From the IMG/VR virus record IMGVR_UViG_3300027972_000013, positions 1 to 56,304 of that record: a stretch of 56,304 bases of DNA. One strand, given 5' to 3'. This DNA is from a virus. Positions 28,604-52,391 of the stretch are shown here, one piece after another (the first letter of the stretch is position 1; every line of letters begins with the position of its first letter). Made by a program: the position numbers and the translations under genes. The notes beneath the pieces are model-generated. The model saw only the letters and a program-made list of their open reading frames with translations, was not told the origin of the DNA and searched no databases.

Positions 28604-30556
28604 CTATGCCGAAGACCTCAAGCGGATGTAGCGGACATCCGAACCGACAACAAGCGTGATGTATCCCTCGTAAGTCCCTCCGGTAGACACCCAACCGGAC
28701 ACCTGCATCGTGCTCGCCCCGCCGACGTTGAGGAAGATGTCGTCGTATGCCGTCAGCGTGAGGTCGCCACGCTGCGCATTCAGCGTCAGGTTAGTGTAAC
28801 CGCCAAGCGTTGGGCTTTGAGACATGCTTAGATAGCTAGAATTGGCGACCGTCCCATCCGTCGAGTAGCCCAGCCACTGCCCGCTCACGATGCTCAGACA
28901 GTTCGGGTAGGCCGCGCTTACGCTACGCACATCGCCGACGTTGTAGAGCGTGTGGGTCGCCAGGTCGAGGTCTGCTGAGAGCGTCCCGGTGATCGAGCCC
29001 ACTACGATCAGCTCCGTCCCCGTCCACTTCATGTAGTTCGTCGCGTTGCCGATGGAGAACATGGAGGCGCTGGCCGCATAGCCCAGCCAGAATCCGGGGT
29101 CGGTGTCAGTCGGGCTCGACTTGCCTTGACAGATAGCGCTCCCCGTCGTCGTCGCCAGCGTGATCGTCTGCGCGTCAATCGTCCCCGCCGTGAGCTTCGA
29201 GACGGAGAGCGTTGCGATCTTCCCGTCCGTCACCGCGAGGTCGACGATCTGGTTGGTGTTCACAACGTTCGTCGTCGCCGAGATGTCGATGGCCGAGACC
29301 TTGATCGACAGCGTCCCCGCGAGCGGGTTGAAGCGGAAGTAGTAGGAGCTTCCCTCTGCGTACAGCCGCCCGGCTGAGTCTAGGTACGTCGCCCACGTCG
29401 AGCCGTCCCAGTAGCCCAGATAGTCTGTCGTGACGTAGAGCCCGGCGTCGCCCGGAGCGGAAGGCAGCCCGCCCGCCACCCCGCCCGGAATGTTGGAAAT
29501 CTTGACCGCGCTTAGGTCGTTCGCCTGGACGTAGGTCTTCAAGTCGAACTCTCGCGTCTTGTTCCCAAGCTCGATCGAGATCGCGCCGGGACTCCCCGTG
29601 ACATCCGACTTCGACACCGACACGATGCGAACGCTGGCGGTTACGTCTAGCGCGGGATCATCAATGCGGAGCAGCTTCCCCAGCGTGAAAGCGTCAATGG
29701 ACTCCCCAGTGATCGCCGTGAGGTCCGCCGCGCTCACGCGGTAGGTTAGCTTCGGGGTGGAGAGTTCCGCCGCGTAGTCCACCGCCGCCGTATACAGTTC
29801 CGCGACGGTCGTGTAGTCCTGGTCGACCCAGTACTTCTCGATGACGCCGTAGGTGCCAGTGTTGGTATCGATGTACTTGAGGCCCGTTGGGTTCACCGAG
29901 GAGATGTCGACCTGCTCCGTCCCTGCCCCTGCCCCAAACGCCCACAAGCGCGTCACGAGCTCCGTGACGTCCTCTTCCTTCTCGATTGTCTGAAGGTTGC
30001 GCCCGTAGTCGATGTAGGCGCTGACTTGCGTCTCATCGTCTACAAGGTTCAGCGTCCACGGGTAGGCGTTGGTGTTGACCGTCCACAGATACCCCGACTG
30101 GAGGCGCCCTACGATGTCGCACAGGCACGCCCACAAGGAAGCGCCCCGCGCCCACTCGTAGAGGAATTGGGCGTTGAAGTCGCACGTCCCCAGCGCCCAA
30201 TTCGATTGGAGCGCAAGAACGTCGGCGATTGATACGGCAGTCCCCGGCCCCGAGTAGGTGATCGCCGCCACCTTCGCGTCGATCAGCGTAGCGAGGACGT
30301 GTTCGCAGTCCACCCTAATCTCGGTCGCCTCGCCGTCCGAGTAGGTGATCTTCTTGATGCGGAAGAGTTCTACCCGTTCGTCGTCGTCGTAGATTTCGGC
30401 GTAGCGCAGGACGGCGATCTCGGCGGCGTGTGGATCGTCGGCAGCGATCGTGAACCCCGCCGTCCAAATCTCGTTCTCTCGCATCTCGTAGTTGATCGCG
30501 TAGGCGTCTGCGATGTCAGCGACTAGCTCCCGCGAGGTGTTGTAGACCTTGACCAT
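28604..30556 (-). CDS. Tail-tip/Gp37-like phage tail protein
   Basis: A 650-residue protein starting MVKVYNTSRELVADIADAYA at ATG 30556 (TAATG overlap). Residues 1-360 match the layout of siphovirus tail-hub proteins (ReqiPepy6 Gp37/Prophage_tail type): FTIAADDPHAAEI, YSDGEATEIRVDCEHVLATL, DYGRNLQTIEKEEDVTELVT, LGNKTREFDL. The rest is a fibre-like beta region (SAGRLYAEGSSYYFRF; ITGTLSADLDLATHTLYNVG) ending in a small beta domain. It probably forms the hub under the Dit ring. No peptidoglycan hydrolase motif is visible. Confidence 0.78.
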   Translation of the reverse strand: MVKVYNTSRELVADIADAYAINYEMRENEIWTAGFTIAADDPHAAEIAVLRYAEIYDDDERVELFRIKKITYSDGEATEIRVDCEHVLATLIDAKVAAITYSGPGTAVSIADVLALQSNWALGTCDFNAQFLYEWARGASLWACLCDIVGRLQSGYLWTVNTNAYPWTLNLVDDETQVSAYIDYGRNLQTIEKEEDVTELVTRLWAFGAGAGTEQVDISSVNPTGLKYIDTNTGTYGVIEKYWVDQDYTTVAELYTAAVDYAAELSTPKLTYRVSAADLTAITGESIDAFTLGKLLRIDDPALDVTASVRIVSVSKSDVTGSPGAISIELGNKTREFDLKTYVQANDLSAVKISNIPGGVAGGLPSAPGDAGLYVTTDYLGYWDGSTWATYLDSAGRLYAEGSSYYFRFNPLAGTLSIKVSAIDISATTNVVNTNQIVDLAVTDGKIATLSVSKLTAGTIDAQTITLATTTGSAICQGKSSPTDTDPGFWLGYAASASMFSIGNATNYMKWTGTELIVVGSITGTLSADLDLATHTLYNVGDVRSVSAAYPNCLSIVSGQWLGYSTDGTVANSSYLSMSQSPTLGGYTNLTLNAQRGDLTLTAYDDIFLNVGGASTMQVSGWVSTGGTYEGYITLVVGSDVRYIRLRSSA

Positions 30557-31536
30557 TACACCCACCGATCCTTGTAGACCACCGTCACGCCGAGTGTCCG
30601 TGAAACCTCTGAGTCCGTGAACGTAACTTCGTTCACGCCAGGCCCGAGAGAGATCCACTCCCCGTCCATGTTCTTCATGTCGTTCACGCCGTTCACCGTG
30701 AGGAGTTGCTGGTCGCAGTCGATGACGAGAACCGCGCCGGGTGTGAGGCTGCCAAGGTACTCAAATAGCGTGCCGCTCCACACAGCACCATCTATCAAGA
30801 GCGACACCCCGCCGACGATGCTCACCGCCGCTTCGAGTAGGTGGATCGCGGTCGAGATGGACACATACATGCGCGGCGCGATCGCGGCTGTCGCAGAGAA
30901 GACCTGATTGGCAGACGCCGACACGCTCTGCGCGGCAGTAATCGCCGCCGAGGCTTCCGTGACTTCCGTCCATGTGACGGACAGATACGGTTCGTGCCCG
31001 GCGTCGTTGTAGAATGTCGCTCCCTCGCCAACCGCAACGGGGGCCGTGGCGGAGATGTCTTTGCTGGTGCGAAGGATGAGCTTCGTTGTCCCGCCACATT
31101 GGACCCATCCCATGCCGGTTGAGTTCATCGTTATGTAGCTCCAGATGCCGGAAGAGAACGACGTTGCCGCCTTTGATCCACCGTCCCCGCTGTACTTGGA
31201 ATAGTCGTAGTCACCCAAGACGACGGGATCATGCGGGTAGTCTGGTTGGCCGTTCTGAAGCACGATGTCACACGCGGTGACGTATACGGTCTTCGGATAC
31301 AGGTACAGCTTGCAGGACGTCACCACCGACCCAGCTGGGATGGTGCTTGTGTCGAATAGGAGTGGCCCGCGCAGGACGGAGTACACGCCGGTATCGAGGC
31401 CCTGCCAGGCGGATACGGTTGTGTCGCTGTAGCTCACAGCCGCCGCGGCGTTCCTGCACGTAGTGTAGTTAGCGTCGATCTTCCAGAGCTGGACATGCAG
31501 CCCCGACCTTGCCGCAATGTTCGCTGAGTGCGCCAC
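30556..31536 (-). CDS. DNRLRE-type tail protein with Dit-like C-terminal domain
   Basis: A 326-residue protein from GTG 31536 (TAGTG overlap; GTG 31545 is an alternative). Residues 30-190 fit a DNRLRE carbohydrate-binding-like beta sandwich: LLFDTSTIPAGSVVTSCKLY, TKLILRTSKDIS, PYLSVTW. Then three weak Ala/Val repeats (about 195-255) and a C-terminal domain (LTPGAVLVIDCDQQLLTVNG, LGPGVNEVTF) homologous to the C-terminal half of distal tail proteins and to the end of 31536-35411. It is likely a receptor-binding accessory. Confidence 0.72.
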   Translation of the reverse strand: MAHSANIAARSGLHVQLWKIDANYTTCRNAAAAVSYSDTTVSAWQGLDTGVYSVLRGPLLFDTSTIPAGSVVTSCKLYLYPKTVYVTACDIVLQNGQPDYPHDPVVLGDYDYSKYSGDGGSKAATSFSSGIWSYITMNSTGMGWVQCGGTTKLILRTSKDISATAPVAVGEGATFYNDAGHEPYLSVTWTEVTEASAAITAAQSVSASANQVFSATAAIAPRMYVSISTAIHLLEAAVSIVGGVSLLIDGAVWSGTLFEYLGSLTPGAVLVIDCDQQLLTVNGVNDMKNMDGEWISLGPGVNEVTFTDSEVSRTLGVTVVYKDRWV

Positions 31537-34500
31537 TACGACCACCTCGGCTCATGATCGACGTCCATGTCAACCGTTCGGCTTACTGCGGCGTCGCTGT
31601 ACTCGACGACGTTTGCACCAGGGGCTAGCTTCCAGAACACGCCCGTCATGTCGTAGCGCACGTCCGTACCGTTCTTCTTCACGGTCATGCGGTCGGTGTC
31701 GATTTCGAGGATGTCGCCCGCCGCGAGGCTGCCTGAGTAGCCAATCAACTGGACGATGTACTTGATGGCGACGATCTGGAGCGAGGTCGTTGCTGTAATC
31801 GCCACTACGCCACCGCGCACGATCATGCCAAGCGCGGCGACAGAGACCGCGACGGAGATCGCCGACGCCAGCGTGAACAAGAGCCCACCACGCGGGATGA
31901 TCTCGGCGCTGGCAGTGATCGCCGCAACTGCATCGGCTAAGAGACTCGCCGCCGCCGCCAACTCCGCTACGGCCTGAGCGTCCACCACCCCGTCAAGCGT
32001 CATCGTCCCCACGGCTACTTGTGAGGCGACGACGTTGATCCCCGCCGACGCGCGGCGAATGGGTGAGCCCAGGCTGACGAGGACTGCCGTAACGTGCTCG
32101 ATGCTGACCTTGCCGTCAGCGAGGAGGTTGCCTGCCGCGACGACTTCCGCCGCCGCCGTGATGAGATCCTGGGCCGAGGCCAAGAGCGCGGCCTGTGCTT
32201 CGATAGACGCCGCGGCAGAGATGGCGGTATTGCCTCCGCGGATGAGGCCGGCGACTGCTTGCATGGACGCGGCAATCGCCACGGCGCACACCCCGACCTT
32301 GACCATGGTGTCGGGGACAATACTGAGAGAGGCGCTCGCGTCAATGTCTACAACTCCGTCCGCAATCAGGCTGGCCGCGGCGACGATGGATGCGACCGCG
32401 TCAACGTCGACAACGCCGTCCGCCGTTAGGCTGCCAGCCGCGATGAGGTCGGCGACCGCGGCGATGTCCGCCTTGCCGTCTGTCGTCAAGTTCGCCCCCG
32501 CCACCAATGCTGCGAGCGCCGCTATCGCACACGCGGCAGCCTTGACCATGCCGTCTGGGACAATGCCGAGGAAAGCGCTCGCGGTGACGCCCGCCGTGCC
32601 GTCTACGATGAGGTTCGCCGCCGCGACAAGCCCCGCAGCTGCACCAACATCGACAGCCCCGTCCGCAAGGAGGATTCCCGCCACGACAAGATCAGTGACG
32701 GCGGAGATGTCGACAACGCCGTCCGCAATCGTAGACGCGAGAGCGGACAATGAGGCCGCAGCTTGTACGTCTACCGCGGCAACCTTGAAGACGGCTCCCG
32801 CGGGATCGACTGACACGACCGCCTGGATGTCCACTGCGCCCAGCTTGACGAGCGCCTGGAGAATCAAGAGCGCCGCCGCAGCATTCGCGTCTACCTTGCC
32901 GTCTGCGATGAGGGAGCCAAGGACGACAAGTGATGCCGCTACGTTAGCGTTCACCTTCCCGCCGAGGGTGAGCTCGCACACCGCCGACAATGATGCTGCC
33001 GCGTTCGCGTTCACAACACCAAGCCGAACGAGCGTCGCAACATCCGCAAGGTTGGCTGCCGCAGATATGGCAACCACGCCGGATTCAAGTTGCGACGCCC
33101 CGCCCGCCTTCCAGAAGCAGCCAGCTTCCCCGACGAGCGGCTTGGCCTGCGAGTTGTAGAGCGTCGTGACCCATGTCGAGGCTTTCTCTGCGTTTAGTAG
33201 GCGGTACTCGTCTCCGATACCCGCGAAGAAGTTGGCCTCATTGTGCGACCCAATGAGGAGCGCCCGCGCCACATTCTCCATCGCGGTGTAAGTGCCTGAT
33301 GTATCGTCCGTGTCGTCTATCTGGACGCCGTCACGGTAAATCTTGAATCCAGAGCAGGCTTCGTTCCCCGAGTATGTTCCGACGAAGTGATGCCAAGCGT
33401 TGTCGTTCGCTAGAGCGGTGTTGTAGTGCCGCCCACGGAAAGCCCCGGTTGAGTTGTCCCACGCATCGAAGTAGATCTTGCTTCCCGACGAGACGTAGAG
33501 AAGCCACTCTCTCAAGTCGGCTGGTCCGCCGCCTGCCGCTGTCGTGTAGATTCCGATGAGGGAGCGCGAGGCCACCTTATCAGTGTCGAACTTGACCCAC
33601 AGCGCGATCGTGAAGGGCGAGTCCGTAGACCCATCCCCGAATGAGAAGTGGGCATCATCCCCCATCGAGATGTAGTCAGCGGTCCCGTCGAAGTCTTGTG
33701 CGCTACCCACGACTCCGCTTGTCGTCACCGCAGGATGAGCCGCCGCTTGCTTCGTTCCGTTGTGGGCCAACGTTCCGTAGTCGTCAACGCAGGACGTGCT
33801 CGTGGTACGTGCCTGTGCCGCGACTGATCCAAAGTAGCGGATGTCTGCCGCTCGGTCGTACCCGTCCGCGCCGAGGAACCAGACGAGCCGGAACGACGGA
33901 AGCGCATTGAGTGGGTAGTACGGCATCGAGTTGTGCGTCGACGATCCCGTTGTGATGTCCCGCGCCTTGGCCCAGGAGATGGCGCTGATTGGCGTCGAGT
34001 ATTCCTGCACCTCGTCCTTGGCCGACACGGCGACAGTGAACGCGGCATAGAGCGTCGTACCGAAGATGTAGAGCGATCCGTCGCAAATGCTCGTGTCTGC
34101 ATCGTATGGCGTCCCAATCGCATCGCTCTCTAGGACCGTGGTCTCATTCCACGCCCCGCCCGAGTAGTCGAAGCAGAGCAGCTTGTCCGTCGCAACGGAA
34201 TCCGTGACCTTGTAGAGGATGAACGGCCTGTTCGTTGAGTCTGCGACGATTGCTCCGACGTACCCAGTATCCCATGATGCGTCGGAGTTGAAGACGAGAT
34301 AGCCAGCGCCCTCGGCCATCGGCAAGGTGATCGCTCCGCCGTCCGCTTCCTTCCATGCCGGTGTCGCTGCCGTCGCGTTGTCCGTGTAGGCATAGTAGAG
34401 ATCGTGGTTGAGGTTCCCCGCCGAGTAGTCTCGGTAGTGGTAGGCGAGGTGAACACGATCCGAGGCCCCAATGCAGACGGAGTAGTATTGGGTATCGAGG

Positions 34501-35411
34501 TCCGCTACGCCCTCAACCACCGTCTGACTGTTGCCCCAGGTCGCGCCCGAGTCGGACGACAGGATGCGGTAGATTCCGTAGTACGTCGTCCCGCCGTCCG
34601 CTCTGGTTCCTCGGTAGAAGAGCGCGAACTTACCGTCCGACAGGATCAGGCATTGGGGATAGGCACAGTTCATGTCAGAGTTGACGGCGTTGACGACCGA
34701 ACCCCACGCCGAGATATCCTCGACGTTCGTCGACTTCTTCATGAACAGCTTGCCTGTCGCCCCAGAATACCCGCCATAGAAGACGTAGATGTAGCCGTCT
34801 GCGTCGATTGCCAGCGTTGGGGCGTTGTGTGCCGAGTCCGCTTCGGCGTCGTCTACCTTGACCGGCGTCGCCCAACGCAGGGTATCGAGGTCGAAGTAGG
34901 TGATGTAGATATCGCACCCCGTCTGCCACTTGAGGTATCCGAGGTAGATCCTTTGGTACGTGCCGGAGAAGTAGATCGCCCGCCGCTTGTTGAGCCACAG
35001 CGAAGTAGCGTCCGCCGCCGTCTGGATCGTCCCATCGCCCATCCCGAGCGCGAAGACGTACTCCGACGGGAACACATTCGCCGCGTCTTCCTGTCCGATG
35101 CACGTTGAACAGCCACAGTAGATGTAGAAGTCAGCGTCAGCGTCTACGTCGTGCGTACACTTGACCCAGGCGATCAGCGTTGTGCCATCGAACGAGACGA
35201 TGCGATGGGGGATCTTGGTCGTACCGTTTGTGTTTGTGAAGACGATGTCCCCGCCGCCTGGCTGCGCGTTGGCTAGTTCGGGCCACTCAGTCGTCGTGAT
35301 CTTTAGCGGAGTCGGGAAGTCGGCGACGTCTGCGCCGACCTTCGTATGGTCGACCGTCGCCTTGTAACGATACGTCCAGACATCCGATCCCGACGTGTAC
35401 CAAGTCGCCAT
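31536..35411 (-). CDS. Giant multidomain tail fibre: DUF2341, BNR-like propeller, LamG, repeats, Dit-like end
   Basis: A 1291-residue protein. Residues 1-110 look like DUF2341 (DFPTPLKITTTEWPELANAQ; FYIYCGCS). Residues 115-560 look like a BNR-type sialidase/polysaccharide-lyase propeller (APTLAIDADGYIYVFYGGYS; CLILSDGKFALFYRG; LSSDSGATWG). Residues 575-745 are a LamG/concanavalin domain (FTIALWVKFDTD; GFKIYRDGVQIDD; FFAGIGDEYRL). Residues 775-1215 are about 22 Ala/Val-rich units of 20 residues. Residues 1218-1291 repeat the Dit C-terminal fold (LAAGDILEIDTDRMTVKKNG; LAPGANVVEYSD). It likely binds or trims surface glycans. ATG 35411 follows GGGGG. Confidence 0.8.
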   Translation of the reverse strand: MATWYTSGSDVWTYRYKATVDHTKVGADVADFPTPLKITTTEWPELANAQPGGGDIVFTNTNGTTKIPHRIVSFDGTTLIAWVKCTHDVDADADFYIYCGCSTCIGQEDAANVFPSEYVFALGMGDGTIQTAADATSLWLNKRRAIYFSGTYQRIYLGYLKWQTGCDIYITYFDLDTLRWATPVKVDDAEADSAHNAPTLAIDADGYIYVFYGGYSGATGKLFMKKSTNVEDISAWGSVVNAVNSDMNCAYPQCLILSDGKFALFYRGTRADGGTTYYGIYRILSSDSGATWGNSQTVVEGVADLDTQYYSVCIGASDRVHLAYHYRDYSAGNLNHDLYYAYTDNATAATPAWKEADGGAITLPMAEGAGYLVFNSDASWDTGYVGAIVADSTNRPFILYKVTDSVATDKLLCFDYSGGAWNETTVLESDAIGTPYDADTSICDGSLYIFGTTLYAAFTVAVSAKDEVQEYSTPISAISWAKARDITTGSSTHNSMPYYPLNALPSFRLVWFLGADGYDRAADIRYFGSVAAQARTTSTSCVDDYGTLAHNGTKQAAAHPAVTTSGVVGSAQDFDGTADYISMGDDAHFSFGDGSTDSPFTIALWVKFDTDKVASRSLIGIYTTAAGGGPADLREWLLYVSSGSKIYFDAWDNSTGAFRGRHYNTALANDNAWHHFVGTYSGNEACSGFKIYRDGVQIDDTDDTSGTYTAMENVARALLIGSHNEANFFAGIGDEYRLLNAEKASTWVTTLYNSQAKPLVGEAGCFWKAGGASQLESGVVAISAAANLADVATLVRLGVVNANAAASLSAVCELTLGGKVNANVAASLVVLGSLIADGKVDANAAAALLILQALVKLGAVDIQAVVSVDPAGAVFKVAAVDVQAAASLSALASTIADGVVDISAVTDLVVAGILLADGAVDVGAAAGLVAAANLIVDGTAGVTASAFLGIVPDGMVKAAACAIAALAALVAGANLTTDGKADIAAVADLIAAGSLTADGVVDVDAVASIVAAASLIADGVVDIDASASLSIVPDTMVKVGVCAVAIAASMQAVAGLIRGGNTAISAAASIEAQAALLASAQDLITAAAEVVAAGNLLADGKVSIEHVTAVLVSLGSPIRRASAGINVVASQVAVGTMTLDGVVDAQAVAELAAAASLLADAVAAITASAEIIPRGGLLFTLASAISVAVSVAALGMIVRGGVVAITATTSLQIVAIKYIVQLIGYSGSLAAGDILEIDTDRMTVKKNGTDVRYDMTGVFWKLAPGANVVEYSDAAVSRTVDMDVDHEPRWS
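31766..33086 (-). repeat. About 22 tandem 60-base units coding Ala/Val-rich repeats
   Basis: The coding repeats follow x-DG-x-VDI-x-A-x-A-S-L-x-A-x-A-x-L-I with a period near 20 residues. Units are diverged, but neighbours such as TADGVVDVDAVASIVAAASL and ADGVVDIDASASLSIVPDTM are close, indicating expansion by duplication. Two longer super-units end IVPDGM and IVPDTM. Confidence 0.75.
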
Positions 35412-42662: not shown

Positions 42663-43075
42663 CACGTCACCGCCCCAACAGCCGTCACGCCAGCCCTTGC
42701 CGTGATCGCCGTTACCGCGCTCCAGATCACTACCGCATCCCCCGTCTCGCCCTGCGCCTCACGTACAAGCACGATCATCTTTCGCCGCTGCCCGGCTACC
42801 TTCGTCGGCGGCTTCACGGGATAGAAGACCTTGAGCGCGTTCGGGTGCCCGTTCGTCATCCACACAAAGCGCGAGTTCGCCATCGTCACCGTCGGCCAGT
42901 CGTGGAAGTGGAACTCGTAGTCAACCTTCCCATCGACTGACTGGTATCTCTCGGCGCGTTCGGTCGGAACAGGGATCGCTTCTGCCCAACGCAGATTGGT
43001 GAGGGTCGTCGTCCACTTCGTGCCCCCAGCGGCCTGAGTCGCCTTCGTCCCCGTCTCGATCCGTATACGCTCCAT
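42662..43075 (-). CDS. Head closure/head-tail adaptor protein
   Basis: A 137-residue protein: MERIRIETGTKATQAAGGTK, WTTTLTNLRWAEAIPVPTER, EFHFHDWPTVTMANSRFVWM, ALKVFYPVKPP, KMIVLVREAQ. The beta-barrel order and position between connector and gp10 fit SPP1 gp16-like head-tail joining proteins. The ATG overlaps the connector stop (TGATG). The second to fourth codons make CGTATACG (43062). Confidence 0.75.
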   Translation of the reverse strand: MERIRIETGTKATQAAGGTKWTTTLTNLRWAEAIPVPTERAERYQSVDGKVDYEFHFHDWPTVTMANSRFVWMTNGHPNALKVFYPVKPPTKVAGQRRKMIVLVREAQGETGDAVVIWSAVTAITARAGVTAVGAVT

Positions 43076-43758
43076 CAGAAGCCCACCGGAATCCTGTACT
43101 TGGAGATCAAACTCCAGTTCTCTCCCATGGCCGTCCAGTTCCCGCCGCCCCACGTCGTGCTATTCGTCCCCGTGATGCTCTCTTGGATCACTGCGCCAGG
43201 GTTGCGGAAGTGGCGGAAGGCGTACTCGTAGATCCACTGGACGACCTCTTGCGGCACCGAACCCGCCGTCCGCACTTGCCGCACCATCATCGTGTCGTCG
43301 TCTGCCGACTCGACGTCGATCGCCCGCGTGTCGGGATAGGGATAACGCCTAGTTAGGGCGATCGTGCCCGCCGTGTTCGTTGCCGTGATCCCTGGAACAC
43401 CAATAGAGCCGTAGGAGCCGCCGAGCGTCGTGGAGTTGATGAGCAAGCACAGATTGTCAGCGGTAAGCGAATCGGTAGCCCCTACGGCGAACTCGAGATC
43501 CTCTTCGTCGCCCACGGTCGCAGCCGTATACGTCTGCCCGTTGATCGTGACCCAGTCGTCCGCTGCGACCCCCGTCAGCGTGATGGTCGGGTTGTAGACC
43601 TCGAATGGGTTGTTGAGAAACGTGTCCGCCTTGGCTTTCGCTGCGTTGAACAGCCTCTCGAGGATGGTGTCGTAAGTCGTGCCGTCTACTTGGCAGTAGG
43701 ACTTGAGCTCATCCTTGTACGTCGCCCAAACGAGCGCAGCAACCGGACCAGTCGCCAT
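43075..43758 (-). CDS. Head-tail connector (gp6-like) with inserted Ig-like domain
   Basis: A 227-residue protein. The N-terminal helices (ATYKDELKSYCQVDGTTYDT, ILERLFNAAKAKADTFLNNP) and C-terminal IYEYAFRHFRNPG/SLISKYRIPVGF form a gp6-type connector. Between them (about 58-165) lies a beta domain, DDWVTINGQTYTAATVGDEE, LTADNLCLLINSTT, GTIALTRRYP, similar to part of 47051-47812. The ring stacks under the portal. ATG 43758 follows AGGAG. Confidence 0.8.
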   Translation of the reverse strand: MATGPVAALVWATYKDELKSYCQVDGTTYDTILERLFNAAKAKADTFLNNPFEVYNPTITLTGVAADDWVTINGQTYTAATVGDEEDLEFAVGATDSLTADNLCLLINSTTLGGSYGSIGVPGITATNTAGTIALTRRYPYPDTRAIDVESADDDTMMVRQVRTAGSVPQEVVQWIYEYAFRHFRNPGAVIQESITGTNSTTWGGGNWTAMGENWSLISKYRIPVGF

Positions 43759-43760
43759 CG

Positions 43761-43964
43761 CTACCACTCCTGATGGTCACAGAACCGCCGGACACCCCGA
43801 TTGCTCGGGGTGCCGACGATTCGGTTCTCTACCTCTTCAATCACGCGGGTTGCCACACCGGCCTCGATGAGGTGTTCGCCTTCGTCCTTGCGGACGTTGA
43901 TGACGTCTCCGGCCTTGTGCTGCTCGCCGCGGATCTCCTTTCGCTTCTTCAGTTGGACTCTCAT
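43761..43964 (-). CDS. Small hypothetical head-region protein
   Basis: A 67-residue basic protein: MRVQLKKRKEIRGEQHKAGD, VINVRKDEGEHLIEAGVATR. The K-AGDVINV-x-x-D-E-x-HLIEAGVA pattern is a small beta-hairpin-helix protein often found near phage connectors. GAGGACTAGCC precedes ATG 43964. Confidence 0.65.
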   Translation of the reverse strand: MRVQLKKRKEIRGEQHKAGDVINVRKDEGEHLIEAGVATRVIEEVENRIVGTPSNRGVRRFCDHQEW

Positions 43965-43966
43965 GG

Positions 43967-46612
43967 CTAGTCCTCGTATGTGACCTCGAACTCGACCGCC
44001 CAAATCGGGTTGACCGTCGAGCCGGTGTCGTTCGTGATGAGGATTCCGATCAGGTCGCCCGGATCAGCAGCGATAGCCGTCCCCAGTGTGAACTTGTCGT
44101 TCAACTGGGAGGCCGTCCAGGTCTGCGCCGCCGAGAAGACCATGTCCGTGAAGTTCCCGACGATGAACACGATGGCCTGGTCGTGAACCGTGAGGCCCAT
44201 GTTCGTCACGCGCACCTTCGTAATCTCCAACTTGAACGGAGCCGAGAAGGTGTCGGCGTTCGGAATAGCGACGAACGGCTCGTCATGGTTCGTCCCGTCA
44301 ATCAGCGGAGTCTGAGTCAACTGCGCCGCCGTGATGACGTACTGGACCCAATAAGCAGCCTGCCCATCGTAGGTTGCCGCAACCCAATCGGCGGGCGGAA
44401 CGAACGTAATCGCCCCGGTGCGCTGCAAGCTACGCAGTCCGTCATAGGCCGTCAAGTCGGTGTTGTCGAAGACGGTCAGGTCGGACCACGTACCGGCACC
44501 AGTGCTATACTGCCACTTTCCGCCGTTTCCCCCCCAAGTCGCCAACGCACCCGCCGCCGTCGCAAGGTCATCAAACACGACCTCACAGAACTTCGTCGCC
44601 ATTCCAACCGCGAAGGCGTCGCCAGCCTCTTCGGCGTCGGCGTCCGGCAGCAACTGCCAGTTGGCCGCCCAGTCCGCCCCAGCTGTCAGCAACGCCGACG
44701 TAGCGAGAGCGTCCCAAGTCGTTGTGCCGAAATCGTAGACCAGTACGAATACGTCATCCGTGGCGTTCGTGTAGGTGTGCGTCGTGATGTCAGGCGCACC
44801 GCCAACCAGCCCGCCGCCGTTCGTCCCCGCGCCGTCCGTATCCTCACCACGTAGCCCGCCCGCAAACGGGAGAGTCGTGGTAAAGGTGTTCGTCACAAGG
44901 AAGTCAGCCGTGGCGTCTACGAAGTCTGGGATATTGATCGTTGGAAGAGCAGCCGTCTGGTTGTCAGAATCGACGATTACGTCTGAGTTTCCGTCGTCAA
45001 TCGTGAGCGAGTTCGTCTTGGCCGCGCCCTCAAGGACGATGCTCGTGTCCGTGATGGTCGTTACTCCCGCGGTGTTCACGATCGTTCCGCCATGGTGAAG
45101 GACGATGTCGTTCGTGAGCGTCGCCCCGCTTAGGTCGATACCGTCCGTCGCTACGCCGACCATTGCGATCCCGTCAGCGACAACCGCTCCGGTGTCAACG
45201 GCAATCCGCAGCCCGGCGTCCATGTCCGTAACGTCCGGGTAGACCTCGATCATCACGCCGTCAAACATCGTGCTCGTGACCGTCGCAGCGCCCTCAATGT
45301 GGAAGTGCCCTGCGTTGATCGTGGTCGCCGTGAAGTTGTCCGCCGACACATCGAGCTTGGCCGACAGAGCCGACATCGCCGTAATGGCCCCGGTGCCTTC
45401 GTGCTTCGCCCATGGTTGGCTGGCATACGCCTGGCTCGCTACGGAGTTGTTCGATCCGCCCGTGAGTCCGACGTAAGCGCGAGAAGCATCCGCGACAGCC
45501 GTAACCGTCGCATCGCCAGCGCCAATGATGTCGATCTTGTTGTAGAAGCCAACGTAGTCGTCAAGATCGCCAGCGCCCGTCGACTGCTGAACGTTGAGCA
45601 CCATCGGGATGACCGTCGCCGTCGGGTTCGCGTTGAGAATCTGAGGAACAGCAACGCTTCCGATATTGAACGTGCCGATACCGAAGGTCGTCTCGTCGAA
45701 CTCAGCCGTGATCTTGGTCGCCGCCGTCGCCGTCGTCGTTCCTAGCGTCAACGCCTGATCGTCCTTCATGCCAATCGTGCCGGTCAGCGCGTATGAACCT
45801 GTCTGAGAAAGAGCGCCAGTAACGTAGACAGCGCCGGTTAGACCGATCTTGTCCTCGGTGACAGTTAGGCGATCCGCTGCGGATGTGTTGTCGAGCGTCG
45901 CGCCGCTGTCCATCGTCAGGATCGCGCTGTTGAGCAGCAGGCTCCCGAAGTCGAACGTAGCCGCGCCAGTCGTTGTCCACGAAAGGTTCTTCGTCGACCC
46001 AGCCTGCGTGATCGCTACGTTGCCGGTTGTGTCGCTAACCGCCCACGTCACAGCCGCGCCCGAGTCATACCCAAGCACCCAGCTCGGCGTGTAGGTCGTG
46101 AACGATGTAGCCGCCGTCACTGTGGTTGTCGGCCACGTCAACGACGTCGCGCCCGCCGTGACCCAGCTAATGTCCTTCGTGGACCCCGTGTGAGAAAACG
46201 CCACGTTTCCCGTCGTGTCGGAAACGGCAATCGTCATCGAGGCCCCGGCGTCGTACCCAAGCACCCAACTCGGCGTGTAGACCGTATGCGACGTCGCGTT
46301 CGTCATGCCGAACGTCGTCACGGTCCAGTCAACAGCCGTGGCGTTGCCGCCATGCGTAATCGTCACGCCGCCGGTTGTGTCCGCAACAGCGAACTTGATG
46401 TACGACCCCGCGTCGTATCCGATACGGAAGTCCGGCGTGTTGGCAATGAATGACGTGCTCGGAGAGAACGCCAGCGTCGTCCCAGAGAACGCCATCGTGC
46501 CGGTGAACGACACCGCGCCCGATGCCGTGATCCCGTCGAAGTAGTCCGTCTTCGCCCAAGCCACCGCCCCCGCGAGGAGAACGGCGAGCATAACTACAAG
46601 TGCCTTCTTCAT
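43967..46612 (-). CDS. Large Thr/Ala-rich protein with signal peptide inside head operon
   Basis: An 881-residue protein. Residues 1-20 (KKALVVMLAVLLAGAVAWA) form a Sec signal peptide with an A-W-A cleavage site. Residues 55-215 hold three repeats of about 55 residues (YTPSWVLGYDAGA; AVSDTTGNVAFSHTGSTK). The middle is beta-rich and lacks Cys. The C-terminal 250 residues (FKLEITKVRVTNMGLTVHDQ; AAQTWTASQLNDKFTLGTAI) form a jelly-roll-like region. An exported protein between capsid and connector genes is odd: it may coat the host cell, or the N-terminus may be a lysogenic conversion fusion. AGGAGGGCGAC precedes the ATG. Confidence 0.75.
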   Translation of the reverse strand: MKKALVVMLAVLLAGAVAWAKTDYFDGITASGAVSFTGTMAFSGTTLAFSPSTSFIANTPDFRIGYDAGSYIKFAVADTTGGVTITHGGNATAVDWTVTTFGMTNATSHTVYTPSWVLGYDAGASMTIAVSDTTGNVAFSHTGSTKDISWVTAGATSLTWPTTTVTAATSFTTYTPSWVLGYDSGAAVTWAVSDTTGNVAITQAGSTKNLSWTTTGAATFDFGSLLLNSAILTMDSGATLDNTSAADRLTVTEDKIGLTGAVYVTGALSQTGSYALTGTIGMKDDQALTLGTTTATAATKITAEFDETTFGIGTFNIGSVAVPQILNANPTATVIPMVLNVQQSTGAGDLDDYVGFYNKIDIIGAGDATVTAVADASRAYVGLTGGSNNSVASQAYASQPWAKHEGTGAITAMSALSAKLDVSADNFTATTINAGHFHIEGAATVTSTMFDGVMIEVYPDVTDMDAGLRIAVDTGAVVADGIAMVGVATDGIDLSGATLTNDIVLHHGGTIVNTAGVTTITDTSIVLEGAAKTNSLTIDDGNSDVIVDSDNQTAALPTINIPDFVDATADFLVTNTFTTTLPFAGGLRGEDTDGAGTNGGGLVGGAPDITTHTYTNATDDVFVLVYDFGTTTWDALATSALLTAGADWAANWQLLPDADAEEAGDAFAVGMATKFCEVVFDDLATAAGALATWGGNGGKWQYSTGAGTWSDLTVFDNTDLTAYDGLRSLQRTGAITFVPPADWVAATYDGQAAYWVQYVITAAQLTQTPLIDGTNHDEPFVAIPNADTFSAPFKLEITKVRVTNMGLTVHDQAIVFIVGNFTDMVFSAAQTWTASQLNDKFTLGTAIAADPGDLIGILITNDTGSTVNPIWAVEFEVTYED

Positions 46613-46621
46613 GTCGCCCTC

Positions 46622-47041
46622 CTAGAGAGGCTGCTCGAAGAACACGCTCACTTGCGCCTTGCCCGTCGTCGGGGCAGTGCTCGTGTGCGTGAACGTCGCA
46701 TAGACCTTCGTGGCGCTCGTCGGACACCAATCCAAGACGTTCGTCTCGGTGGTCTCTCCGTTAGCGACAGTCGGGTGCCCGTCTTCAATGAGGTAGTTGG
46801 TATCAGCGGCGGTCCCTACGATGAGCGCGTTATCCGCCCCGCCGTTGAACGCCGTTATAACCCACACCTCACACCCAGTCAGCCGCGCTCCCGCGGGGAC
46901 GGTCCCAATCTCGACTGTCCCCGTCAGAGCCGCTACATCCGTGTACTCGATCAGTTCCGTGATAACGCCCAGCGTGGCAGGAGCCCACGCACAAGCGCTA
47001 CCCGGAGACCGAACGTTATGCGGTCTCAGTCGATCAACCAT
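46622..47041 (-). CDS. Small virion/decoration-like protein
   Basis: A 139-residue beta protein: LIEYTDVAALTGTVEIGTVP, AGARLTGCEVWVITAFNGGA, LIVGTAADTNYLI, YATFTHTSTAPTTGKAQVSV. The P-A-GA-x-x...V-x-T-AFNG...GT-x-x-D-x-N-YL...T-x-A-PTTG-x-A pattern recurs in siphovirus head operons downstream of capsid genes. GGAGGCTGAG precedes the ATG. Confidence 0.7.
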   Translation of the reverse strand: MVDRLRPHNVRSPGSACAWAPATLGVITELIEYTDVAALTGTVEIGTVPAGARLTGCEVWVITAFNGGADNALIVGTAADTNYLIEDGHPTVANGETTETNVLDWCPTSATKVYATFTHTSTAPTTGKAQVSVFFEQPL

Positions 47042-47050
47042 CTCAGCCTC

Positions 47051-47812
47051 CTAGCTCGCGTCGTCGCTGTAGGCGACCGCCTGATTGACCGGCCCATACC
47101 CAGGCATCGCCCGGATGATGACCGCGGCAAACTCGGTCGTCGCATCCACACCGGAGACTCGCGCCCCAACGTGCGTGTAGTCGCTGTCGCGCGTGAGATC
47201 CTGAACGGCAACCTCAAACGCTGCCTGCTGCACGAGGTCCAGCACGACCGTCTTCGCCGTGTCACTCTCGGTGATCGTGAACAGGCACTCGCCCGGCTCA
47301 TCCGCGGTCAACGTGACAACCGCCGAAGAGGCCGACGCTAGAACTCCCGGCACGCCGTAGGTGGCGTCGTTGATGCAAGCAGCAAGGCTCGTCGCCTGCG
47401 CGGTAGTGCTGCCGCTCTGGTCATACTGCCGACTCGATAGCGACTCAGCCGCCTTGGCCGTGAACGTCAGGGCTGTCCCCGCCGTCAGCGTTCCGCCAAC
47501 GAACGAGTACGGCTGGATGATGATCGTGTCGTCAACATCCGGCGAGTTCATCGTGATGGAGGCTTCCGCCAGCTTGATTCCCTGCGCCATCGAGATCGTC
47601 GCACCAAGCTGAAGCGGCGTGCCACCAGCGGCGTTGAGCGCCTGATAGACCTTGAAGTCCAGCGACTCGCCATCCGTCTGCCCCTGAATCGTGAGCAGGA
47701 ACAGCGCCTTGGCGTACTTCGTCATCGAGAAGTACGGCCCCGTCAGCGAGGTCGCGTTCGTCGTCGCCTGCAAGGCGGTGTCGATCTTGGTCCCTTCCAT
47801 GATGTCGTGCAT
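47051..47812 (-). CDS. Structural protein downstream of capsid gene
   Basis: A 253-residue protein: MHDIMEGTKIDTALQATTNA, FSMTKYAKALFLLTIQGQTD, LTFTAKAAESLSSRQYDQSG, AACINDATYGVPGVLASASS, AVVTLTADEPGECLFTITES. The middle repeats the Ig-like domain inserted in the connector (43075-43758). A decoration or head-fibre role is likely from position. AAGGAGAACGAC precedes the ATG. Confidence 0.65.
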   Translation of the reverse strand: MHDIMEGTKIDTALQATTNATSLTGPYFSMTKYAKALFLLTIQGQTDGESLDFKVYQALNAAGGTPLQLGATISMAQGIKLAEASITMNSPDVDDTIIIQPYSFVGGTLTAGTALTFTAKAAESLSSRQYDQSGSTTAQATSLAACINDATYGVPGVLASASSAVVTLTADEPGECLFTITESDTAKTVVLDLVQQAAFEVAVQDLTRDSDYTHVGARVSGVDATTEFAAVIIRAMPGYGPVNQAVAYSDDAS

Positions 47813-47864: not shown

Positions 47865-49217
47865 CTATGCCGCCAACGAGATGAAGGGGCTAACCGTGTT
47901 GGTCCCGTCTCGCAGCGTGATCGCCTGAGTCAGCCACGTCTTACCATCCTCGTAGTACGTGGCCTTGATCGTTTCCTTCCCCGCAAGGAAGTTCGCGTAG
48001 GTGTTGTCGCTCTTGAGCTGGACGCCCTGCCCCGACTTGATGAGGTAGTAGTCCAGGTTCACCAGACGGAGGTCGCCGGCAGCGCCAAGCGTCGGGCTGA
48101 TCTCGTTGAAGACAATCGGCACACCGCACAGTCGCGGAGCCGGAATGCCGTCTCGAGCGTTCTCCGACCAGATGAGCTGGCCGGCACCGTTCGTCATCGT
48201 CATCAACTGCGGGAGCATCTTGACGCGCTGGCACAGGAACACGTAGCTGCCACCCGCCAAGATCCGCGCCAGCATGTTGACGACGTCCATGTAGTTGACC
48301 TCGCCAGCCACTTGGCGCGCGATGCTGATCTCCGCGCCGCATCCAGCGAAGCCAAGGAACTCGCCAGCGCCCGTTCCAGTCTGCACCTTGTCGTCGCGGT
48401 AGGACGCAATCGCGCCCTGGACAAGCGGGCCCATGAGCGCGCCCATCTGCGGCGTATTGACCGCCGACTCCTCGGTGACAATCCAGTACGCCCCAACCTT
48501 CTCCGGCTTCAACGACACCTGGAGTAGCTTCGGCGTGGTGAGGTTCGTCACGTTCGCGGCTTCCTTCGCCGAGTAGACGGCGACGCCGCCGTATACGCCC
48601 TTCGATCCCGTCTGGTCGAATGCGTTGAACGTGATCTCCGCGTTCGGCGGATCGCCAGCCGGGATCTGTCGGCACAGGCCGGAGATGAACTGGCCGTTGT
48701 CGGGCACCCGCAAGAGATCGTTCGAGAACTGCGGAATCAGGAAGTAGCCGCCGTCGCCGCCCGAAAGCGTGGTCATGTCGCGCTTCTCCATCTCGCCCTT
48801 GTGCATCTTCACGAGACGCTCGGGGGCCGCACCGCCCGTCTGACCGGCAGCGCGCACCTCGGCGATGACGTCCGACAGGCCGTCCTTGCCGTAGCCGTAG
48901 AACTCGTCAGGCTCGGTCTTCCCTAGCGGAGGCTGATTCGCCGCACGCAGCCTCTCTTCCATCGACGCCTCGGCCTTCTTGACCTTGGCGTCCATCTCTT
49001 CCTGTGCGGCCTTCAAGTCCTTTCCATACTGTTCCTTGAGCCGCTTCTCCATCCCCTCGATGTTGTCGGCCAGGCCCTTGAGCGTGGTCGTCACCGTCTC
49101 AAGCGCGCGTTGATCCTTGTCCGGCGCAGGATCGCCGCCCTCTCCGGGCACCGTCAACCCACCAAAGACCGGGAACAGCAGCATGTTCACAAGCATCTGC
49201 CATAGTCGCTTCTTCAT
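47865..49217 (-). CDS. Major capsid protein, HK97 fold
   Basis: A 450-residue protein. Residues 35-105 are the coiled-coil delta/scaffold domain (TTTLKGLADNIEGMEKRLKE; KKAEASMEERLRAA), removed by the protease during maturation. The capsid fold follows: GGYFLIPQFSNDLLRVPDNG, VGAYWIVTEESAVNTPQMGA, AGEFLGFAGCG, YVFLCQRVKMLPQLMTM, LCGVPIVFNEIS, FLAGKETIKATYY. ATG 49217 has GAGGGG eight bases away; GTG 49226 is an alternative. The protease lies directly upstream. Confidence 0.92.
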   Translation of the reverse strand: MKKRLWQMLVNMLLFPVFGGLTVPGEGGDPAPDKDQRALETVTTTLKGLADNIEGMEKRLKEQYGKDLKAAQEEMDAKVKKAEASMEERLRAANQPPLGKTEPDEFYGYGKDGLSDVIAEVRAAGQTGGAAPERLVKMHKGEMEKRDMTTLSGGDGGYFLIPQFSNDLLRVPDNGQFISGLCRQIPAGDPPNAEITFNAFDQTGSKGVYGGVAVYSAKEAANVTNLTTPKLLQVSLKPEKVGAYWIVTEESAVNTPQMGALMGPLVQGAIASYRDDKVQTGTGAGEFLGFAGCGAEISIARQVAGEVNYMDVVNMLARILAGGSYVFLCQRVKMLPQLMTMTNGAGQLIWSENARDGIPAPRLCGVPIVFNEISPTLGAAGDLRLVNLDYYLIKSGQGVQLKSDNTYANFLAGKETIKATYYEDGKTWLTQAITLRDGTNTVSPFISLAA

Positions 49218-49218
49218 G

Positions 49219-49869
49219 TCACTCACCCCTCATGAGTCTTAGAACTCGCTCGCTCTCGCGCTGGAACGCCTGCAAGTGGTCACCCGGCTTGCCTCGCGGC
49301 TCCCTCTGAGTGCCAGTCGGCGGCTCTTTGAGGAGTGCTTCCAATCGTTCCATCTGCCCCTTCATCCCATCGGGAATCGTCCAGATCCTCGGCTCTTCTG
49401 GCGTTCGGACACTCGTGATCTCGGCCTCTTCGTTTGAGGCGAAGTTGGCCGTGACCGGCGAGATTTCGAACGACCGCACTTCCTTGTAGTGAAGGACTTC
49501 GTCCTCGCCGTCCTTCACCGTCGTATCTTTGATCGGCGCAAAGCTGTGGCTCATCTGCGTGATGTAGCCCTTCTTCATGCCGCTGTAGACTTCGGCCCCG
49601 CGCTGTACGTCGAGGTCGAGATGGCCTTCCTTGACCAGGAGGCCGGTCTCGTCTTCCTCAACGAGCGCCCTTCCAATCGGCTCGCTGGGGTCGTGCATCC
49701 ACACAAGCGGCAGCCAGCCCTTGTGGTCGCGCAGCGTCTTCTTGAACGCGCCCCTGTCGAACACCGTCCCGTAGGAGTCCTTCACCCCGAACACGGAGGC
49801 ATAGCCAGTGAAGACGCCCGCTTCGCTAATCTCGCGCAACTCGAACTCGCGTTGCAGCCTGGTCTTCAT
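49219..49869 (-). CDS. Prohead protease, HK97 family
   Basis: A 216-residue serine protease: EFELREISEAGVFTGYASVF, WLPLVWMHDPSEPIGRALVE (catalytic His in the MHD-P motif), YITQMSHSFAPIKD (catalytic Ser in MS-x-SF), VRSFEISPVTANFASNEEAE. These motifs define the HK97 prohead protease, which trims the capsid delta domain. Start ATG 49869 after GGAGGTGAGC. Confidence 0.93.
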   Translation of the reverse strand: MKTRLQREFELREISEAGVFTGYASVFGVKDSYGTVFDRGAFKKTLRDHKGWLPLVWMHDPSEPIGRALVEEDETGLLVKEGHLDLDVQRGAEVYSGMKKGYITQMSHSFAPIKDTTVKDGEDEVLHYKEVRSFEISPVTANFASNEEAEITSVRTPEEPRIWTIPDGMKGQMERLEALLKEPPTGTQREPRGKPGDHLQAFQRESERVLRLMRGE

Positions 49870-49871
49870 GC

Positions 49872-50312
49872 TCACCTCCGCTTCGACAGACGCAGATTCA
49901 GCGTCGTGTAGTTGTCATCCTTAACGGAGGTCGCAACGAGACGGTAGATCGTGCTGGGCTTCAACACGAACGGCGACGGGATTTGCTCCGGCCACGGAGT
50001 AGACCACGAGGCCATGCGTTGACGGATCAGCGTCCCGCCCGTATACGTCCCGCCGTACTCGACGAGAACGACGTGTGTCTCGTCCTCGAGCGCGTCCGTC
50101 CGAATCGCGCTCCTCCACACCATCGCCGTACCCGCCGCCCCGATCGTCGCGCCCTCATACCACTGCAACACCGCCGACTCGTAGGAGTTCAGTTCGCACC
50201 CGAGCTCGTAGCTGCCCGTAGCCGGAGTCGTGATCGCAATGTTGATTGGAGCCGCGATGTCGTGGTTGTTGTTGTAGTACGACACTTCCCAGATTTTCCT
50301 GTTATCATCCAT
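49872..50312 (-). CDS. Hypothetical structural protein between portal and protease
   Basis: A 146-residue beta protein: MDDNRKIWEVSYYNNNHDIA, PINIAITTPATGSYELGCEL, TAMVWRSAIRTDALEDETHV, IPSPFVLKPSTIYRLVATSV. It resembles a small jelly-roll or head-fibre domain. GTGAGGATT precedes ATG 50312. It contains CGTATACG at 50040 (Thr-Tyr-Thr). Confidence 0.65.
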   Translation of the reverse strand: MDDNRKIWEVSYYNNNHDIAAPINIAITTPATGSYELGCELNSYESAVLQWYEGATIGAAGTAMVWRSAIRTDALEDETHVVLVEYGGTYTGGTLIRQRMASWSTPWPEQIPSPFVLKPSTIYRLVATSVKDDNYTTLNLRLSKRR

Positions 50313-50334
50313 AATCCTCACCACCCCACCGCCC

Positions 50335-50514
50335 TCATCGTGAACGGAACATCTCCACGCATCGACAGTTGATGACGTGCTCTTCCGGCCCGTCCCCTGG
50401 GTGATCCATCTCCGTCCCGTCGGGCATCCGATACGGCTCGTCGAAGGGAATCCACTGCCCAGAGATCACCATGTGCTCTTCGCGCGCCCGCGGCGGGTCC
50501 ATGCTCGAGAGCAC
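50335..50514 (-). pseudogene. Frameshifted C-terminal end of MuF domain
   Basis: In the -1 frame relative to the portal fusion, 59 residues continue without a stop: VLSSMDPPRAREEHMVISGQ, EPYRMPDGTEMDHPGDGPEE, HVINCRCVEMFRSR. This is the standard MuF ending (HPxNCRC). The portal frame stops at 50466 instead. One extra G in GCGTGCTC (giving GCG TGG CTC) would join them. It is either a one-base sequence error, a real truncation, or an untested frameshift site. Confidence 0.8.
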
Positions 50515-52391
50515 GCCTTCTCCTCCACCACACCAGACTGCCGCGCCGCTTCGTGCATCCCGTAGCTAGACGCCGAGTGGACTTCCGTCCGAGCGATCCT
50601 CATGGAGCGATATGCGCCTGACCCACCCTCCCACTCCTTGAACTGGTCATCGACAGCCGCAGCAATGCGACGCATATCCCAGCCTTCGCCGAGACCAGAT
50701 AGCACCACTCGACGGATGCCCTGTTGGGTTGTCTTCTGGATCTCATCTACCGCCTCGGCGGTGTGGCGCCTCACCCAGTCTTGGACCGACTTGCTCCAGG
50801 CGTCGAAGTCTGAGCGCAGCGCCCGCCCTGGCTCGGCGATGTCCTTCGCTACCTCTCCGCCGAAGTCGGCAATGACGGCCCGCTCTACTCCCGTTAGGAG
50901 CTTCTCCCAGTCGGCGCGGAAGCTGGCAATGACGTCGTCTGTGTCGCGTGTGCCGTTCTCGACAGCCCTCACAACGGCCTTGCGCTGTGCGCCGAATTGG
51001 TCGGCGACCTTCACCGCGACACCGCGCTCCCAGCCCTGCTTGCGCCTGTCCGTCACGCGGTAGTGCGCCTGGAATTGATCCTCCGTCTCGAGGTTGACGG
51101 AACGTGGTGCCGAACGTCCGCCCGATGTGTCCCCATCCACGGACCACTGCGACGTCGTCCCCAGCGGGAGCATCAGCGCCGATATGTAGCCCACCTCGCC
51201 GCCCTTGATCGGAGGAGTCCCTACTCCAAACACATCCGCCGCGACGTTCCACGGCATACCGCACGCCCACACCTTCGTCGCGCGCTCAATCGCCTTCGAT
51301 AGCTTGTAGTCGGCAAGCGGGCTCCCGCTTAGGTCGTAGTCCATCCATAGATCGCCAACCCGCGCCACGCTTGGGTCGATCGTGCCAAATTGGATACGGA
51401 ACTTGTGATTGAGCGTCGACCGCATCTCGGACAGCCGAGACTGCACCGGCCCCTCCCACTTCGCGCGGATCGCCCACTCCTTGTTCTCGAACGTCGCACC
51501 CAGCGCACCAATCGCCTCGGGGTGGACGTGGAATACCTTGCACACGCCAACCTCGTAGGTGTTGAAGGAGTTGAGGAAGTCCATCTCGATCGGCGTCAGG
51601 CTGAGTTGCAGGATCTCAAACGGCTCCGACGGAATCAGCGTGCGCCGCGCGTTCTCTGGGCCGTCGACTTGCTTCTTGAGCAGTTCCAGCAGCGTCTCAT
51701 GCTGATCTGCGCTCAAGTGTTCTTTCGGGCTCATCACCATTTCAGGACGGGCACGGTTCTTCATCGAGTTCCTATTCCACAACAGCCCGTCGTTCGACGT
51801 ATCAACCAGCCGCGCCGCTGCCTGTAGCGGAGCCATCCCGTAGTAGTCGTCGCCAGGGTCGAAGAACTTGAAGTGGACGATCTGCTCTGGCTTATACCTC
51901 GTCGGCGTCACCTCTCCCGGCACGAGGTAGCTGTAGTGGTCGATGTGACCTAGCGCATCCGGCACGATGGAGACACGCTCCGGGCGCAGTAGCCACAAGT
52001 CCAAGTTGTCCTGGCCGACTGGGATCCATACGCCATACGCATTCCCAGCCAGCGACTTGTAGATGTCGACTGCCTCCATCAGCGAGCCCCACGTCCCTTC
52101 GGTGTTGGGCGAGCGGACGAGCTCGACGAGCGGATGGCTCTCGACAATGACGTCGCCGCCCTTCGTGCGCTGCTTCACTTGCCAAGGAACGGACCGTATA
52201 CACTCGGCTAGGTCGGAGGCAACGGCGTACAGGATGTAGCTAACCCGGTAGCCTTCCTTGATCGCCTTCTCTGTCGACCACTCCGGCCACATCGTCTGGC
52301 CGGCCATGAATGCTGTACCAACGCGGGGCTGGGCTACGCGCTTCGCAGCCCACTTGACAATCCCGTTCGCTACAGCATCCCTAAGTCCCAG
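50466..52391 (-). CDS. Portal protein fused to MuF domain, CTG start (phage A)
   Basis: A 641-residue HK97-type portal: KEGYRVSYILYAVASDLAEC, GTWGSLMEAVDIYKSLAGNA, KPEQIVHFKFFDPGDDYYGM, PLQAAARLVDTSNDGLLW. Residues from about 420 are a MuF domain (SFRADWEKLLTGVERAVIA; IARTEVHSASSYGMHEAARQ), cut by a frameshift near the end. The first ATG (52307) lacks a ribosome site, but the frame extends 28 residues (GLRDAVANGIVKWAAKRVAQ) to CTG 52391, four bases after AAGGAGG, with no ATG, GTG or TTG in frame. I call the CTG. Confidence 0.88.
   Translation of the reverse strand: MGLRDAVANGIVKWAAKRVAQPRVGTAFMAGQTMWPEWSTEKAIKEGYRVSYILYAVASDLAECIRSVPWQVKQRTKGGDVIVESHPLVELVRSPNTEGTWGSLMEAVDIYKSLAGNAYGVWIPVGQDNLDLWLLRPERVSIVPDALGHIDHYSYLVPGEVTPTRYKPEQIVHFKFFDPGDDYYGMAPLQAAARLVDTSNDGLLWNRNSMKNRARPEMVMSPKEHLSADQHETLLELLKKQVDGPENARRTLIPSEPFEILQLSLTPIEMDFLNSFNTYEVGVCKVFHVHPEAIGALGATFENKEWAIRAKWEGPVQSRLSEMRSTLNHKFRIQFGTIDPSVARVGDLWMDYDLSGSPLADYKLSKAIERATKVWACGMPWNVAADVFGVGTPPIKGGEVGYISALMLPLGTTSQWSVDGDTSGGRSAPRSVNLETEDQFQAHYRVTDRRKQGWERGVAVKVADQFGAQRKAVVRAVENGTRDTDDVIASFRADWEKLLTGVERAVIADFGGEVAKDIAEPGRALRSDFDAWSKSVQDWVRRHTAEAVDEIQKTTQQGIRRVVLSGLGEGWDMRRIAAAVDDQFKEWEGGSGAYRSMRIARTEVHSASSYGMHEAARQSGVVEEKACSRAWTRRGRAKSTW

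Follow-up and report, generated by a model that had tools for sequence, protein, structure and literature searches.

A Signal Peptide on a Mosaic, Fiber-Like Protein Encoded in a Phage Head Operon

Virus heads assemble inside the cell, not outside, and the structural genes of tailed phages are by default read as encoding cytoplasmic proteins. Why, then, would a gene within a phage head operon encode a protein that starts with an apparent signal for export? This question is raised by a locus in IMG/VR virus record IMGVR_UViG_3300027972_000013, of which we analyzed positions 1 to 56,304 (the whole 56,304-nucleotide stretch is hereafter called the window). A sequence-only reading had described a secreted protein encoded among its head genes that might either be displayed by infected cells, e.g., for exclusion or adhesion, or be a virion fiber whose N-terminus acts otherwise.

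The gene and its place in the head operon

The open reading frame of 881 codons could be confirmed at 43967-46612 on the minus strand, with AGGAGG before its ATG. Its site had been placed correctly between capsid-associated and connector genes, with the group around the major capsid protein (MCP) on one side and a head-tail adaptor (phrog_442) on the other. Transcription runs from the portal through a 150-aa protein, the protease, the MCP, a 253-aa and a 139-aa protein to the target and the adaptor, followed by tail genes. The features are as follows, with the parts of the target listed in the order of the protein:

50466..52307 (-): portal protein with MuF-like C-terminus (PF04860 3.2e-42, phrog_2662)
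49872-50324: 150-aa protein between portal and protease, no signal peptide
49219..49875 (-): S78 prohead protease (PF04586 7.9e-23, phrog_80)
47865..49226 (-): MCP (PF05065 1e-16, phrog_10 3e-17)
47051..47812 (-): 253-aa protein between MCP and target, function unassigned
46622..47041 (-): 139-aa protein directly 5' of the target, function unassigned
46618..46623 (-): Shine-Dalgarno sequence AGGAGG in the upstream sequence, five bases 5' of the target ATG
43967..46612 (-): target gene P0001, 881 aa, signal-peptide-bearing mosaic protein (ORF, exact ends)
46553..46612 (-): predicted signal peptide, residues 1-20, MKKALVVMLAVLLAGAVAWA (-3,-1 rule, not SignalP)
46445..46552 (-): mature N-terminal segment, residues 21-56, tracks the capsid lineage
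46313..46444 (-): 44-aa repeat copy 1, residues 57-100
46151..46282 (-): 44-aa repeat copy 2, residues 111-154
45965..46096 (-): 44-aa repeat copy 3, residues 173-216
45173..45775 (-): middle domain, residues 280-480, also found in signal-peptide-less proteins
43970..45049 (-): C-terminal domain, residues 522-881, exchanged between capsid lineages
43075..43767 (-): head-tail adaptor directly 3' of the target (phrog_442 1.3e-5)

Head genes thus surround the target as they would a capsid decoration protein or head fiber. An identical protein is encoded on IMG/VR contig L003. The whole protein matched nothing in Pfam above the curated cut-off, nothing in PHROG and no sequence in the PDB, the known decoration and head-fiber families in these databases included, and tblastn (E 0.01) found no match among 50,697 phage records either. 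By these comparisons, the protein at full length matches no known family. A late foreign insertion (moron) is unlikely because related genes overlap or abut the portal stop codon in five relatives (L020, L024, L042, L038, and L028) and because the window and contig L027 are collinear at the family gene. The large terminase subunit (TerL) resembles those of phages of many hosts and indicates no single host.

Several further features of the window deserve mention. The portal/MuF frame (50466-52307) encodes 613 aa in the window vs 657 aa in contig L003, which is 99.99% identical with one mismatch and one gap across 18.6 kb, and given this gap the frame in the window may carry a frameshift. The window has two genes for the large terminase subunit (6627-8012 and 9893-11203), whose products share 53% identity across their C-terminal 208 aa. 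It also encodes two portals that are unlike each other (1714-3318, phrog_10963; 50466-52307, phrog_2662) and a separate MuF protein (295-1140), and a 141-base stretch near 8483-8623 recurs at 97% near 53.3 kb. The doubled terminase and portal could reflect two packaging modules in one phage, neighboring prophages, or an assembly join. Two adjacent proteins at 30556-35411 end in a Dit-like C-terminal domain (PF22768), and the longer one (1291 aa) additionally carries BNR and laminin-G-like domains as well as an extended tract of short repeats. A 157-aa protein (4778-5251) without PHROG match begins with a signal-peptide-like stretch and has another hydrophobic segment close to its C-terminal end; it is perhaps a lysis protein.

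A signal peptide kept across relatives

The N-terminus of the target, MKKALVVMLAVLLAGAVAWA^KTDYFDG, had been called a clear signal peptide, and both our own rule-based test and the relatives of the protein agree. It has the layout of substrates of Sec and signal peptidase I by this rule (a positively charged n-region and a hydrophobic core, followed by small residues at -3 and -1), with a KK n-region, an uncharged hydrophobic core and an A-X-A site, where the cleavage site was set by hand from the -3,-1 rule and the test is our own rather than SignalP. On the Kyte-Doolittle scale, the best 15-mer in the signal peptide reaches 2.83 vs 1.68 for the best 19-mer elsewhere in the protein.

The rule matched 21 of the 450 distinct called genes from all loci collected up to that test, i.e., 15 members of the target's family and six other genes. 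These 15 members are not the same set as the 15 distinct family proteins compared below since L057, with its start deep within the ORF, and the atypical L056 escaped the rule. In 11 control records, each of a named or a complete phage, three of 201 called genes passed the rule, none of them convincing on inspection. The relatives and the control genes rule out a chance hydrophobic start. An artifact from a misassigned start codon or a random hydrophobic segment is also contradicted by the AGGAGG at proper distance, by an SD-like motif preceding 14 of the 15 family genes matched by the rule, and by conservation across lineages, and we deem an artifact of this kind highly improbable.

Relatives were collected by scanning IMG/VR with different parts of the family as queries. 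We compared 15 distinct family proteins, which are always encoded within the head operon, at one of two positions. All 15 start with a hydrophobic N-terminus, and all except L056 are canonical, with Lys or Arg close to the start and Ala or Gly at position -1 of the hand-assigned site; that of L056 is hydrophobic yet uncharged and departs from the signal-peptide rule. These proteins come from phages of three mutually unrelated capsid lineages, and the conservation of signal peptide and cleavage motif across them favors real export. The mature N-terminal segment alone (scan A7) found 15 loci. A signal peptide is present at 14 of them, and at the other (L041) the gene is cut by the contig end, a result that speaks for tight linkage rather than 15 independent events because the loci include near-identical contigs (e.g., L038/L039/L040) and the query was built from signal-peptide members. 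The C-terminal domain (scan A9) found five loci that all have a hydrophobic N-terminus, four of them canonical and L056 atypical. Using the 44-aa repeats, we found 14 loci, of which 13 encode signal-peptide proteins (the query's own and near-identical contigs included) and L036 one without, and the repeats of the L004 protein found four loci, all with a signal peptide.

The target had also been described as free of cysteine, and this needs correction as there is one at residue 676. Across the family, signal-peptide members carry 4.4 Cys per 1000 residues (43 in 9779) vs 13.4 (54 in 4026) in the proteins without signal peptide, a depletion that is suggestive of export in a comparison of sets that differ in domain make-up. 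The target has no lipobox ([LVI][ASTVI][GAS]C) at its cleavage site, no LPxTG-like motif within its final 50 residues and no further strongly hydrophobic segment, and hence no obvious cell-surface anchor. We therefore rejected a lipoprotein, given that the sole Cys is residue 676, and a wall-anchored adhesin, which would carry a C-terminal LPxTG-type signal with a membrane segment. Taken together, the sequence makes Sec export of the target quite probable.

Two other N-termini were observed in this material. A second signal-peptide protein of 184 aa is encoded at L021 1027-1581, directly 5' of the signal-peptide fiber gene of this contig; it resembles the 150-aa protein at 49872-50324 of the window weakly (E 1e-4, two-sequence comparison), and as the latter has no signal peptide, export signals may reach more than one head-operon family. 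In Caulobacter phage TMCBR2 (L052 6566-7312), the gene after the MCP starts with MKSRYAHLAYAACAAAICMAPPTDAGSA, which is signal-peptide-like by eye and was missed by the rule.

Capsid lineages and exchanged modules

The MCPs of the family's phages form three clusters without any match between clusters at 1e-10: the window with L027; L004, L056, and L057; and L020, L021, L025, L028, L034, L038, and L042, joined by L024, L030, and L031 through a match to the MCP of L028. The family gene follows the MCP in the first two and lies between portal and protease in the third. Over the first 33 mature residues, family proteins resemble each other within MCP clusters (median z 9.3 over 49 pairs, lowest 1.2) and not between them (median z 0.7 over 56 pairs, highest 2.4). 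A longer stretch (residues 19-75) places all 15 proteins into one group, which by our reading arises through repeat-like sequence further in.

The C-terminal domain behaves differently in that it is common to the window, L004, L056, L057, and L020, i.e., to all three MCP clusters. Between the window and L004, it is 88% identical at the DNA level over 1035 bases up to the stop codon, and none of 17 other tested window genes matches any ORF of the 17-kb L004 locus, the stretch of this contig that the comparison covered. Eleven of the same 17 match L027, which has a different C-terminal domain and thus shares the operon, not this domain, with the window. Judged from these comparisons, the target is a mosaic in which the start of the mature protein goes with the capsid lineage and the repeats and C-terminal domain are swapped.

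The repeats that had been noted are real, with three 44-aa copies; relative to the middle copy, the outer ones show 39% and 70% identity. The one protein from the repeat scan that has no signal peptide, L036, matches head-decoration and virion-structural PHROGs with its N-terminal half, and its phrog_2647 match lies in a part other than the repeats. The middle domain is common to L005, L006, L010, L012, L013, L014, L015, and L018 (the sole MAG contig from the genome-contig scan); in this domain, the proteins of these loci are 59-69% identical to the window protein. Eight of the nine middle-domain proteins lack a signal peptide, L018 included, so the domain itself needs no export. All eight have an MCP gene nearby (supported by a PHROG match in L005, L006, L010, L012, and L014, judged by eye in L015 and L018, and a candidate without PHROG match in L013), and the L013 protein has, by eye, a repeat-like stretch too. 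C-terminal domains of other family members occur on small signal-peptide-less proteins in three viruses, directly after the MCP in Dunaliella viridis virus SI2 and also in Pseudomonas phage Rollin and MW202733.

Structure prediction with AlphaFold gave a mean pLDDT of 34.8 for residues 522-881 and 38.8 for the rest of the target. The C-terminal jelly-roll that had been proposed is not borne out by this model. The description as a beta protein finds an echo in the last ~90 residues, which are drawn as beta strands (block pLDDT 43-58) and are suggestive only; for the protein outside the C-terminal domain a purely beta character is only suggested.

Separately, the signal-peptide gene is followed in lineage A by a tiny ORF whose two CxxC pairs resemble a zinc ribbon, and in L038 the corresponding 35-aa ORF (4859-4966) has no Cys:

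L024 2495-2602: tiny two-CxxC ORF
L025 6700-6849: tiny two-CxxC ORF
L028 5282-5416: tiny two-CxxC ORF
L034 7479-7655: tiny two-CxxC ORF
L042 2936-3061: tiny two-CxxC ORF

Export, docking, and relation to known systems

The kept signal peptide and the sister modules that lack one and lie near capsid genes jointly support two properties that the sequence-only reading had set out as alternatives. Export is favored by the former, and membership in the head-fiber or decoration kind by the modules and the lineage-tied N-terminus; superinfection exclusion in particular is unsupported by the evidence. If the protein were instead a virion fiber assembled in the cytoplasm, its N-terminus would go unused by Sec or serve as a buried plug, a prohead membrane tether or a capsid-targeting tail. 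The position in the head operon, the occurrence of its modules in signal-peptide-less proteins near capsid genes and the uncharged N-terminus of L056 would fit this. However, 14 of 15 family proteins show the full three-part signal-peptide layout with small cleavage-site residues, and in lineage A (45 pairs) conservation of the pre-cleavage stretch falls below that of the first 35 mature residues (mean identity 0.39 vs 0.51), which is not expected of a docking part, with the reverse in lineages B and C, each represented by one pair (0.50 vs 0.37 and 0.70 vs 0.37). We consider a cytoplasmic fiber unlikely.

It is possible, if somewhat doubtful, that the protein is exported without ever becoming part of a virion, either secreted or coating the infected cell in adhesion, aggregation, phage exclusion or debris binding, and that it has modules in common with virion fibers because phages draw on one module pool. 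A canonical signal peptide in three capsid lineages agrees with such a role, as does the trading of the C-terminal domain between phages with unrelated capsids, which means that this domain at least needs no particular capsid. What speaks against it is that the gene always sits in the head operon, at two different places, that the mature N-terminus follows the capsid lineage, that the obvious cell-surface anchors are missing (lipobox judged by eye), and that the modules are those of head-decoration-kind proteins. The N-terminal link to the capsid lineage may, for its part, stem from the positions at which recombination is possible and not from docking.

On balance, we tentatively favor a Sec-exported mosaic protein of fiber or decoration type, encoded by an integral gene of the head operon, that would act outside the cytoplasm and possibly docks on progeny virions. 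Given export, the case for capsid docking of the mature protein appears about evenly balanced. The anatomy of signal peptide, capsid-lineage N-segment, repeat stalk, middle domain and swappable C-terminal domain is in line with this since a conserved capsid-tied N-terminal part, repeats and a traded C-terminal domain are the layout expected of fibers. The target would be made from the head operon and sent through Sec with removal of the 20-residue signal peptide, and the mature protein would then gather in the periplasm, on the infected cell or in its immediate surroundings. Once lysis frees the capsids of its own phage, the lineage-specific mature N-terminus could recognize them, and the C-terminal domain might bind a target on host cells or in the environment. 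The boldest version, in which virions are finished from outside by Sec-exported fiber subunits that are trimmed and folded there and dock on their own capsids only once lysis brings envelope and cytoplasm together, with the lineage-specific N-terminus as dock and the traded C-terminal domain as tip, strikes us as rather unlikely. We know of no tailed phage that assembles a capsid fiber after lysis; if true, docking from outside would be a second assembly compartment for these viruses. A signal peptide kept in the head operons of three unrelated capsid lineages would mean either that some virion parts come from outside or that the head operon also makes a secreted product, and either outcome would change the annotation of "structural" genes. 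The C-terminal domain presents itself as a ready-made exchange unit.

SAR and signal-peptide endolysins are phage products that use the host export machinery. The superinfection-exclusion lipoproteins of mEpimmI phages likewise depend on it, as described in PMC11893012, which also quotes the lipobox given above. These are lysis enzymes or lipoproteins, whereas the target is a large repeat protein of the head operon without a lipobox. The MCP-adjacent proteins of L005, L006, L010, L012-L015, and L018 share the middle domain with the target and differ in their other N- and C-terminal parts, more Cys and no signal peptide. The phrog_11997 proteins (Rollin 2123-2728; MW202733 44392-44985) consist of about 200 aa without signal peptide, and their domain is the C-terminal domain of L024 and differs from that of the window; family member L038 matches Rollin.

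In the searchable literature, which covers few subscription papers, we found no report of signal peptides on head-operon fiber proteins; the term signal peptide is absent from PMC12796354, and secret-, periplasm, and after lysis are absent from PMC7602432. Among the closest parallels are phage decoration proteins and head fibers such as Hoc of T4, pb10 of T5, gp17 of N4, gp8.5 of phi29, and those of 7-7-1, which keep the same company of head genes. For several decoration proteins, host adhesion is a stated role (PMC7602432), and for the capsid fibers of 7-7-1 a conserved N-terminus, repeats and an exchangeable C-terminus as in the target have been postulated, a layout proposed by analogy with adenovirus (PMC12796354). 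The target, known here from sequence alone, differs from all of them by its signal peptide.
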